Source: Solimonas variicoloris DSM 15731 (lineage in GTDB: Bacteria > Pseudomonadota > Gammaproteobacteria > Nevskiales > Nevskiaceae). From it: DNA of 64,000 nucleotides. The DNA lies in NCBI RefSeq assembly GCF_000382285.1, contig NZ_KB907940.1, positions 1-64,000 of the forward strand, written 5' to 3'. Numbering within the stretch: the stretch's first letter is position 1; each line of letters opens with the position of its first letter. Below, piece after piece: positions 57,557-59,828 of the stretch. Both the position numbers and the translations under genes were made by a program. The notes under the pieces were generated by a model. It saw only the letters and a list, made by a program, of their open reading frames with translations. It had not been told where the DNA came from and did no database searches.

Positions 57557-59278
57557 ATGAGTTTCGACGCTTCCAGCCACTTCATCCTGCTCGCCGCGCT
57601 GCTGTTCCTCGTCAGCATCCTGGCAACCGTCATCACGCCGCGGCTGGGCGTTCCGCTGCTGCTCGTGTTCCTGATCGTCGGCATGCTGGCCGGCGAGGAC
57701 GGGCCGGGCGGCATCCAGTTCCAGAACTACGGGCTCGCCAACCTCGCGGCGACGGCGGCGCTGGCGGTCGTGCTGTTCGACGGCGGGCTGCGCACGCGCA
57801 TCGACAGTTTCCGCACCGGACTGCGGCCCGCGCTGACGCTGGCCAGCGTTGGCGTGCTGCTGACGGCCGGCATTACCGCCGCGGTCTGCCATTGGCTGTT
57901 GCAGCTGACACCCGCCGAAGGCTTCCTGATCGGGGCGATCGTCGCCTCGACCGACGCCGCGGCGGTGTTCTCGCTGCTCGGCTCGAGCGCGCTGGCGCTC
58001 AACGAGCGCGTCACCTCGGCGCTCGAGATCGAATCCGGCACCAACGATCCGATGGCGATCTTCCTCACGCTGGCGACCATCACCTATCTGCAAGCGCCGG
58101 AGAGCTTCGGCTTCATCGAAGCACTGCGCATGCTGATCTGGCAAATGCTGGCCGGCGCCGCCTGCGGCTATGCCGGCGGCTGGCTGCTGATCCGCGGGCT
58201 CAACCGTTTGCGCCTTGGCGACTCGATGTACCCACTGCTGGCGCTGTTCGGCGGCCTGACCATCTTCGGCCTCACCGGCCTGATCGGGGGCAGCGGCTTT
58301 CTCGCCGTCTACCTCGCCGGCATCTTCCTCGGCAACCGCTCGCTGCGCGCGGCAGCCAGCATTCGCCGCTTCCATGACGGCATCGCCTGGATGGCGCAGA
58401 TCGGCATGTTCGTGATCCTGGGGCTGCTCGCCTCGCCGCGGCAGCTGATGGAAGTCGCGATACCGGGCTTGCTGGTTTCGGCGGCGCTGTTGCTGGTCGC
58501 CCGCCCCGCCGCGGTCTTCATCAGTCTGGCGCCGTTCCGCTTTCCGTGGCGCGAGCAGCTGTACATCGCCTGGGTCGGCCTGCGCGGCTCGGTGCCGATC
58601 GTGCTGGCCACCTATCCGTGGCTGGCCGGCCTTCAGAACGCACAGCTATTTTTCAACATCGCCTTCTTCATCGTCCTGGTGTCCCTGATCGTGCAGGGCG
58701 CGAGCGTCGCGCCGGTCGCGCGCCTGCTCGGACTGCAAGTGCCGAAGACCGCCGCGCGCGTGCATCGCGTCGACATCGACCTGCCCGGCCAGCGCGGCTA
58801 TGAGGTGGTCAGCTACCGGATCCCGGACAACAGCAAGCTGATCGGCATGCGCCACAAGGATCTGCCGATCCCCGACATCTCGCGCATCATCTGCATCGCC
58901 CGTGGCGGGCGCGTGCTGCACTATCGCGAATGGGGCGCGCTGCAGGCGCGCGATTACGTTTCGCTGCTTGCCGCCCAGAGCCAGCTCGATGCGCTCGATC
59001 GGCTGTTCGAATCGCTGCACGAGCCGGACGAGCCGCTGACGCGCCGTTATTTCGGCGAGTTCACCGTCAACGCCGACGCGCCGGTCGAGGCGCTGTGCCA
59101 GAGTTACGGCCTGCCAATGCCCGAGCATGCCGCCGACAAGACCGTCGCCGATCTGCTGCAAATGCATTTGCCGCATCCGGTCGTCGGCGACCGTTTGCGG
59201 CTCGGCGAAATTCAGCTCGTCATCAAAGCCGTCGCGGGCGACCGGCCGACGCAGATCGGACTGCGCCTGCCGAACTGA
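57557..59278 (+). CDS. cvrA: Potassium/proton antiporter CvrA (NhaP2)
   Basis: A 573-residue protein. It has an N-terminal CPA1 membrane domain of about 12 helices (GEDGPGGIQF near residues 46-55, ASTDAAAVFSLL near 129-140, LEIESGTNDPMAIFL near 156-170) and a C-terminal cytoplasmic region with a TrkA_C domain (RVDIDLPGQRGYEVVSYRIPDNSKLIG from about 402). A further CorC-like domain follows (RRYFGEFTVNADAPVEAL from about 498). This domain order is typical of CvrA/NhaP2, which exports K+ for protons under low osmolarity. The ATG at 57557 follows an in-frame TTG three codons earlier. Confidence 0.94.
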   Translation: MSFDASSHFILLAALLFLVSILATVITPRLGVPLLLVFLIVGMLAGEDGPGGIQFQNYGLANLAATAALAVVLFDGGLRTRIDSFRTGLRPALTLASVGVLLTAGITAAVCHWLLQLTPAEGFLIGAIVASTDAAAVFSLLGSSALALNERVTSALEIESGTNDPMAIFLTLATITYLQAPESFGFIEALRMLIWQMLAGAACGYAGGWLLIRGLNRLRLGDSMYPLLALFGGLTIFGLTGLIGGSGFLAVYLAGIFLGNRSLRAAASIRRFHDGIAWMAQIGMFVILGLLASPRQLMEVAIPGLLVSAALLLVARPAAVFISLAPFRFPWREQLYIAWVGLRGSVPIVLATYPWLAGLQNAQLFFNIAFFIVLVSLIVQGASVAPVARLLGLQVPKTAARVHRVDIDLPGQRGYEVVSYRIPDNSKLIGMRHKDLPIPDISRIICIARGGRVLHYREWGALQARDYVSLLAAQSQLDALDRLFESLHEPDEPLTRRYFGEFTVNADAPVEALCQSYGLPMPEHAADKTVADLLQMHLPHPVVGDRLRLGEIQLVIKAVAGDRPTQIGLRLPN

Positions 59279-59318: not shown

Positions 59319-59400
59319 GCGACTCAGAATGGGGCGCCGGCGCTTGTAATCAAGCCGAAACCTTTGCACAATCGGCCTAAGCTAATGAACTTTGGGCCTG

Positions 59401-59420
59401 TGGCGCACCATGGTGCGCCA
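59401..59420 (+). terminator. Perfect 20-bp palindrome, possible cvrA terminator
   Basis: TGGCGCACCATGGTGCGCCA is a perfect palindrome followed after CCGG by TTTTTC on the plus strand, 122 bases after the cvrA stop. It could end the cvrA transcript. It is also adjacent to the 3' end of the candidate small RNA transcribed from the other strand. Confidence 0.5.
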
Positions 59421-59490
59421 CCGGTTTTTCTGGGGAGAGAGCGCCGGGAGACACGCATATAGCGGCCCTGGCATGCGGTAAGGCAGCGCC

Positions 59491-59617
59491 AAAAAAGAAG
59501 CCCCCCGGGGTTAACCGGAGGGCAAAGTGCGAGAAAGGCGCATGGCCTTTCTGGAGGAGATCGATCTGACCCGGCAACGCCCCGGCTTGCCGGGTTTTTC
59601 GTTGCTGAATCATGTTG
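59491..59617 (-). ncRNA. Candidate small regulatory RNA with a free CUCCUCC segment
   Basis: On the minus strand a near-ideal sigma-70 promoter (see 59624-59652) would start an RNA of about 127 bases near 59617. It can fold into a CCCGGCAA.../UUGCCGGG hairpin (59570-59594). An open linker with AUCUCCUCCAG (59551-59560) follows, then a perfect AAAGGC-CAUGC-GCCUUU hairpin, and last a terminator stem of CCCUCCGG/CCGGGGGG (59501-59522) followed by U-rich sequence ending UUUUUU (59491-59496). A free CUCCUCC can pair with ribosome-binding sites (GGAGGAG), the way several bacterial small RNAs act. No matching known family was recognised. A short protein frame overlaps it but has poor support. Confidence 0.68.
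59570..59599 (+). terminator. Plus-strand terminator-like hairpin
   Basis: Read on the plus strand, CCCGGCAA pairs with TTGCCGGG (9-base loop) and TTTTT follows. It would stop any plus-strand transcript reaching here from cvrA. The same hairpin is the first stem of the candidate minus-strand small RNA. Confidence 0.6.
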
Positions 59618-59623
59618 CGGTGC

Positions 59624-59652
59624 AGTATAGAGTTGACTGACCTACAAGTCAA
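59624..59652 (-). promoter_or_regulatory. Near-consensus sigma-70 promoter of the candidate small RNA
   Basis: On the minus strand TTGACT (59652-59647) and TATACT (59629-59624) are exactly 17 bases apart. This is the best sigma-70 promoter in the window. An inverted TTGACT-N8-AGTCAA dyad overlaps the -35 region and could be an operator. Confidence 0.78.
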
Positions 59653-59828
59653 TAATGCGATCGGACGAATTTTCAGGTCGATCCATCGCCTCTCGCCAGC
59701 ACCGCCAAGGCGGCCGCAGCCGCCTTCCGGGAATGAAGAGAGCAGATTCCATGCCACGGCCTGCGGTCACAGGCCCGAGCGCCGCCGCTAGAATGCCGCG
59801 ACTCCCCACCTGATCACGGAGTTCCGCC

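Follow-up and report, generated by a model that had tools for sequence, protein, structure and literature searches.

The minus strand at positions 59652-59491 of the window (the whole 64,000-nucleotide stretch of Solimonas variicoloris DNA that was analysed) most likely encodes a predicted short regulatory RNA in which the mRNA-docking sequence of the ribosome is copied, and which is under the control of PhaR, a regulator of carbon storage. Taken as a whole, we consider it probable that this is a conserved, trans-acting small RNA (sRNA) that is repressed by PhaR and set free by storage granules, and whose anti-Shine-Dalgarno (anti-SD) segment blocks Shine-Dalgarno sites.

All of the parts that the original prediction had placed on the minus strand here, namely a promoter, two hairpins, a free linker and a U-tailed terminator, are present where it had put them (Table 1). 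Between positions 59270 and 59840 we found two promoter-like sites and four terminator-like sites, when 0.1 and 0.6, respectively, were expected from shuffled sequences. Folding of the minus strand of 59487-59616 gave -52.3 kcal/mol (z -2.65, with 2 of 200 shuffles equally good), and UCUCCUCC was unpaired in both the minimum free energy and the centroid fold. The unpaired AUCUCCUCC is the segment between the 5' hairpin and the second hairpin of the window RNA. (Note that two terminator-like hairpins lie on the plus strand after the antiporter gene, at 59400-59421 and 59581-59594; the latter is the opposite strand of a portion of the sRNA's 5' hairpin, and one sequence may serve both strands.)

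Table 1 Predicted features of the sRNA unit, in window coordinates
Feature	Positions	Strand	Remark
-35 box TTGACT	59647-59652	-	TTGAC kept in most relatives, by eye
-10 box TATACT, 17-nt spacer	59624-59629	-	TATA(C/G)T in most relatives
PhaR-type operator (predicted) TGCACCGCAACA	59613-59624	-	overlaps last base of -10 box and probable start
Predicted sRNA transcript, ~127 nt	59491-59617	-	ends inferred; U tract ends at 59491
5' hairpin	59567-59612	-	hairpin kept; sequence varies between genera
Anti-Shine-Dalgarno linker AUCUCCUCCAG	59551-59561	-	last two bases pair in hairpin 2
Hairpin 2, AGAAAGGC-CAUGC-GCCUUUCU	59532-59552	-	pairing and two-sided changes
Conserved unpaired CGCACUUU	59524-59531	-	possible second contact
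Intrinsic terminator: 9-pair stem, 6-nt loop, UUCUUUUUU	59491-59523	-	stem with two-sided changes in relatives

BLASTN and covariance searches of related genomes, which had been proposed as a check on the original prediction, found the unit conserved, with compensatory changes in its stems. In particular, we searched 100 related genomes, those with names belonging mostly to Solimonas, Nevskia, Sinimarinibacterium, Hydrocarboniphaga and their kin. BLASTN with positions 59485-59660 matched 80 of the 100 at E ≤ 0.01, many over the 3' part only, the nearest relative (G007) with 94% identity. The 3' module was then searched for with a covariance model (R1, built on 59 sequences with 8 pairs), which matched 81 of the 100 genomes with a total of 129 matches, and 33 of these 81 genomes had more than one match (E ≤ 0.01). 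Within the order that holds Solimonas, 80 of 85 genomes were matched; across the class, matches were found in 12 of 369 genomes, four in the order and eight in other families, two of the latter being weak. Tandem sibling copies of the sRNA, approximately 300-370 bp apart and downstream of phaR, are seen at loci L018, L022, L026, L028 and L030. One genome without a PhaR match has a second, divergent copy (L153, at G428:C20:3385), which has UCUCCCCC and in which hairpin 2 is recoded (GUCAGGGU/ACCCUGAC).

Scored by the best pairing run that each copy offers, hairpin 2 reaches at least seven consecutive pairs at 73 of 74 sites, and the one exception (L050:1721) is a false site. (A copy entered this set of 74 if it combined the anti-SD with a CGCA(C/T) box and a U tract, with no demand for the operator; the strict pattern missed L058, which carries CATACTGCACTGCAGCA.) Inside the order hairpin 2 is nearly invariant, and two-sided changes at four of its pair positions come from distant families; CGCAC is strongly kept alongside it. 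Moreover, two-sided changes occur at nine pairs of the 5' hairpin and the terminator among 13 close relatives, those in the 5' hairpin at pairs 28-45, 29-44, 32-41 and 33-40 of alignment A2, pairs that other sequences break. Because other sequences break some pairs, the overall covariation term for the 13-relative alignment is as low as 0.07. When 57 distinct full-length copies were folded, the 5' region was more stable than shuffles (median z -2.37, with z < -2 in 41 of the 57), and in 51 of the 57 the bases of CUCCUCC were unpaired with a mean probability above 0.5. Note that the copies used to judge conservation of the core, these 57 included, were chosen with a pattern that includes the anti-SD and hairpin 2, so the invariance of the core among them is partly selected; the 57 additionally had to show a motif like the -10/operator and a U tract. 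Conservation, compensatory stem changes and constancy of the anti-SD thus strongly support the original view of a trans-acting type of sRNA gene with a free anti-SD.

The control site proved to be different from the one first proposed. The dyad TTGACT-N8-AGTCAA, originally suggested as a regulatory site, is present in 5 of 74 copies, so it is not conserved, and it was ruled out as the operator. The conserved element at the -10/start is instead TATA(C/G)TGCAYYGCAACA, in which an operator core is fused to the -10 box, and this fused element is found in 59 of the 74 copies (one of the 74 being the false site). PhaR is described as a repressor of the storage-granule response, with an operator that TGCAYYGCAACA matches (PMC6201568, PMC12542648). 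Judged by sequence, TGCACCGCAACA fits the Bradyrhizobium PhaR consensus TGCRNYGCASMA, deduced from footprints and alignment, at 11 of 12 positions, and a 12-mer identical to TGCACCGCAACA is listed for metN, which is 2.02-fold up in a Bradyrhizobium phaR mutant (PMC6201568). The same 12-mer matches YGCRNYGCR of the Sinorhizobium meliloti PhaR core, which is given as NYGCRNYGCRN in an account that also describes S. meliloti PhaR binding to the mmgR promoter in gel shifts (PMC12542648). The control site of the sRNA gene would be this putative PhaR-type operator, in place of the dyad.

Sites of this kind are not confined to the sRNA gene. In 11 genomes of the genus, TGCAYYGCAACA occurs 62 times versus 5 times for the reversed control; of 30 loci viewed, several lie inside genes and others before phasin-like and further genes. 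A phasin-like gene (PF09361) was found in 9 of the 11 genomes, in 6 of them above the Pfam cut-off; the window genome's own phasin-like protein is below it (21.1 versus 24.9 bits). In all nine phasin-like promoters found, a PhaR-like first site follows directly after a TATGMT-like -10 box (with the full core in three and TGT for TGC in six), and a full PhaR core lies 16-17 bp downstream of that first site. Some phaR leaders also have a PhaR-like site, that of the window genome included. Such sites in the phaR leader at L140, L219 and L220 (TGCATCGCAGCA in the window genome) suggest that phaR may be autoregulated. A PhaR-type site, AATTGTTGCAYYGCAACAA, also lies upstream of a short ORF of unassigned function at L115 (G000:C2:350175) and at L132 (G005), and these ORFs are possible further PhaR targets.

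The sRNA gene is linked to phaR itself. Among the 100 relatives, 87 have a match to the PhaR family TIGR01848 at E ≤ 0.001, with 85 over the family cut-off (the PhaR calls in G031 and G027 are partial matches below it), and the window genome encodes PhaR at G000:C2:152840 (143.9 bits). Within the 85 genomes of the order, PhaR is matched in 81, the sRNA in 80 and both in 77. In 68 of these 77, the nearest sRNA match starts 292-592 bp (median 387.5) past the end of the PhaR match and in the same orientation; among sRNA matches within 3.5 kb of the PhaR match, the 77 genomes show no other arrangement. The other nine count as unlinked (G001, G008, G009, G011, G016, G022, G031, G057 and G060); in G031 the sRNA and phaR do adjoin, and the PhaR gene is cut by the contig end. 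Four genomes have a PhaR match and no sRNA match in the covariance count. G035 has a weak copy that is below the limit in the genome-wide covariance search and was found in the locus search (22.7 bits), the contig of G053 ends inside the sRNA site, and the covariance model found no match in G075 and G080. Neither PhaR nor the sRNA is matched in G084. An overlapping count over the fetched loci places phaR upstream on the same strand at 52 of 76 sites, one of which is a false site. Across the 369 genomes of the class, 107 are PhaR-positive, and five of these have an sRNA match, three of the five being in the order; most PhaR-positive genomes beyond the order have no match to the sRNA, and the pair is rare there. 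(A polynucleotide phosphorylase gene, an RNA-decay gene beside the sRNA gene, follows phaR or the phaR-sRNA pair and faces it at L140, L219, L220, L222, L224-L227, L230-L232 and L234; the protein at L140 has RNase_PH, KH and S1 domains.)

Genomes without a PhaR match provide a natural loss of the presumed repressor. Three genomes (G065, G068 and G082, with completeness of 99, 99 and 87%) have the sRNA and no PhaR match by TIGR01848. In them the sRNA promoter has the sequence TATACTTCTTYTCATATCG or TATACTGCGTACCAAGG, the operator being missing from otherwise promoter-like sequence. Five PhaR-positive congeners examined keep it as TATACTGCA(A/C)CGCAACA. In G082 the polynucleotide phosphorylase gene that elsewhere comes after the phaR-sRNA pair is still in place, with the sRNA facing it; thus, phaR seems to have been lost from the same locus. 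The sRNA promoters of these three genomes (L216 in G068, L217 in G082 and L218 in G065) share a different upstream stretch: each has TTGACTCATACGAAAGTCGTACTATACT, and G065 and G082 have GGGACCGRTACCAAAA, of which G068 has a close variant. This pattern would suit a takeover by another regulator. Nor do G221, G333 and G428, also without a PhaR match, have the operator at their more distant copies. Six of the eight genomes with distant or weak sRNA matches are without a PhaR match (two of the six sRNA matches being weak), and control by PhaR is therefore not universal. In G195 and G121, which have distant matches and do encode PhaR, the sRNA lies approximately 0.7 kb beyond phaR; an operator motif is 138 bp before the anti-SD in G121, and such motifs are about 500 bp or more upstream in G195.

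From the sequence of the site, the linkage of the two genes and these natural losses, we infer that PhaR represses the sRNA gene. PhaR would sit on TGCACCGCAACA, over the -10 box and the start, and keep the gene off. When granules form, PhaR would, by analogy with MmgR and PhaR-controlled phasins, be taken up by them and leave the DNA, and this titration would free the sRNA promoter, such that the sRNA gene and the phasin-like gene would be expressed jointly. The exposed UCUCCUCC between the two hairpins would then pair with the Shine-Dalgarno regions of selected mRNAs, which would block ribosome loading. That the anti-SD acts in this way we infer from its exposure and constancy, and by analogy with the precedents described for NmsR (PMC5362039) and sX13 (PMC3771888). 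The storage response would in this way have a post-transcriptional branch that holds down proteins of the granule, depolymerase-like proteins or uptake proteins, and the sRNA would work much as rhizobial MmgR does.

With regard to targets, CTGGAGGAGA-N1-9-ATG occurs at 23 sites in 10 of the 11 genus genomes and at none for the reversed control, an excess that mostly reflects the fact that GGAGGAG is a Shine-Dalgarno sequence. Two site pairs are clearly orthologous, both between the window genome and S. flava, and no single conserved target emerged among the 11 genomes. The window genome has two perfect 10-nt complements before an ATG, one before a DcaP-type porin and one before an exported esterase related to short-chain polyhydroxyalkanoate (PHA) depolymerases (NF050058, 98.9 bits, under the cut-off of 150); as candidate targets, these two are a lead only. 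Duplex energies of the sRNA with nine phasin-like leaders point to ordinary to moderate pairing (z -3.27 to 0.08), and no consistently outstanding pairing was found across the nine phasin-like and eight phaR leaders. A PHA synthase domain (PF07167, PhaC_N) was found in 3 of the 11 genus genomes and not in the window genome, a search by which another enzyme class could be missed. A short PhaC-like protein from G009, presumably class III-like, found nothing when used as a query against the window or three stretches of G000. The stored polymer itself is thus uncertain, since PF07167 finds no PHA synthase in the window genome.

Some of this evidence would also suit other explanations. The RNA may be PhaR-controlled and yet work as a broad decoy, with CUCCUCC mimicking the 3' end of 16S rRNA and many mRNAs with strong Shine-Dalgarno sequences lowered at once during carbon storage, as opposed to a few chosen targets. 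The anti-SD is indeed short and generic, there is no single conserved target, and the 'toxic' small RNAs of Betaproteobacteria are described as having been found through their toxicity in E. coli (PMC4603805). However, the several copies that many genomes tolerate, and the strong conservation of CGCAC and hairpin 2, for which a pure decoy would have no need, make this unlikely. We see a slimmer chance that the RNA binds a protein or another RNA as a sponge, with its likeness to the anti-SD being secondary; the near invariance of the middle hairpin in the order and the want of a target would suit such a role, but the most constant unpaired segment is the anti-SD itself, which is mostly exposed in the great majority of the predicted folds.

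Two further alternatives concern the locus rather than the mechanism. Since the window genome has another copy beside phaR (C2:153511; 78.9 bits in the covariance model versus 75.1 bits for the window copy), the window copy, which is a second locus of the sRNA family in its genome, could be a decaying duplicate of the phaR-linked gene. The window copy is flanked by a Na/H-exchanger gene, which we take to be of the cvrA type, and a DUF1993 gene. The close relative S. flava (DSM 18980) has both copies. The neighbourhood of cvrA, sRNA and DUF1993 is kept in five Solimonas genomes, and in S. marina (G001) and S. terrae (G008), where no sRNA match was found within approximately 1 kb after phaR, the copy between cvrA and DUF1993 is the only sRNA match in the genome. 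Because the neighbourhood is kept and holds the only match in those two genomes, the window copy is unlikely to be a relic; with its promoter, operator, anti-SD and terminator also intact, decay is very improbable. Finally, a 126-amino-acid frame is open through the sRNA bases on the same strand in the window genome, and might be taken for a small protein encoded through the same bases. A conserved protein frame had been named at the outset as what would speak against an sRNA; the intact frame is, however, not conserved in relatives. Read by eye, an ATG close to where the transcript begins meets a stop 3 or 4 codons later in S. flava, S. soli and S. terrae. Stem lengths change between relatives, and the frame has no Pfam match at E ≤ 0.01, which leaves a small protein next to no probability.

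If the reading as a trans-acting sRNA repressed by PhaR is true, it adds to MmgR another case, apparently an independent one, in which PhaR controls a C-rich, Shine-Dalgarno-directed sRNA, here right beside phaR. If two distant lineages have put an sRNA under one granule sensor, carbon storage would seem to call for a post-transcriptional brake. The operator could be tested directly, the loss seen in nature would serve as an experiment, and annotation would gain a new RNA family. We offer, as a possible though rather doubtful extension, that PhaR and the repressed sRNA form a two-gene module of Gammaproteobacteria, independent of the MmgR of Alphaproteobacteria, in which a granule sensor has its own translation brake: granules would release an anti-SD RNA that mimics rRNA and retunes ribosome loading of many mRNAs, and in genomes without a PhaR match the RNA would have been handed to another regulator.

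The original prediction knew of no named family with this sequence, and at gathering scores Rfam 15 indeed has none for the window RNA or for 12 related loci. Sub-threshold matches to suhB/MmgR, RF02278 and ncS54 were seen in both the window and L216, and to anti-hemB in L216; all were below gathering scores, and Rfam membership was rejected. Specifically, MmgR/alpha-r8 (RF00519) scored 20.0 bits in the window and 26.9 bits in L216 versus a gathering score of 41, and RF02278 scored 13.4 and 23.9 bits versus 50. We found no paper on a small RNA in Solimonas, and none that joins a small RNA, an anti-Shine-Dalgarno sequence and polyhydroxyalkanoate. That the family is a PhaR-linked anti-SD sRNA absent from Rfam 15 at gathering scores is well supported.

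Among known systems, the Xanthomonas sRNA sX13 targets G-rich sites close to translation starts through C-rich segments, but its C-rich motifs are described in apical loops and the gene always downstream of polA (PMC3771888). The genes studied here lie instead beside phaR or between cvrA and DUF1993, and the window RNA has its C-rich segment in the linker, which does not fit sX13. The Betaproteobacteria toxic small RNA (RF02278) is likewise short, and its model aligns a UCUCC segment and the terminator with the window RNA, but it is given as 57-92 nt in Burkholderia (PMC4603805). The Neisseria NmsR siblings, compared here by description only, resemble the sRNA in having two predicted anti-SD motifs, tandem copies and metabolic mRNAs that they repress; unlike it, they are under stringent-response control beside an lrp gene, and the description that we drew on brings in no PhaR (PMC5362039). 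Closest in logic is MmgR of S. meliloti (suhB, alpha-r8, RF00519), an sRNA of the storage response that is described as repressed by PhaR/AniA, with a C-rich stretch and a PhaR site in its promoter (PMC12542648, PMC8401924). Binding of purified PhaR to that promoter is described, as is a limiting effect of MmgR on phasins (PMC12542648). On sequence grounds the window gene likewise has a PhaR-type operator, TGCACCGCAACA, in its promoter, and two of the marks of a PhaR regulon member, a match to the PhaR consensus and a genome that encodes PhaR, are found as well. However, MmgR is 77 nt as opposed to the approximately 127 nt of the window RNA, its dyad lies within the -35/-10 region (PMC8401924) whereas the Solimonas site is at the -10/start, and the descriptions of MmgR at hand mention no location adjacent to phaR. 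The sRNA family is thus MmgR-like in its logic, but it is no member of RF00519 and is a separate RNA.
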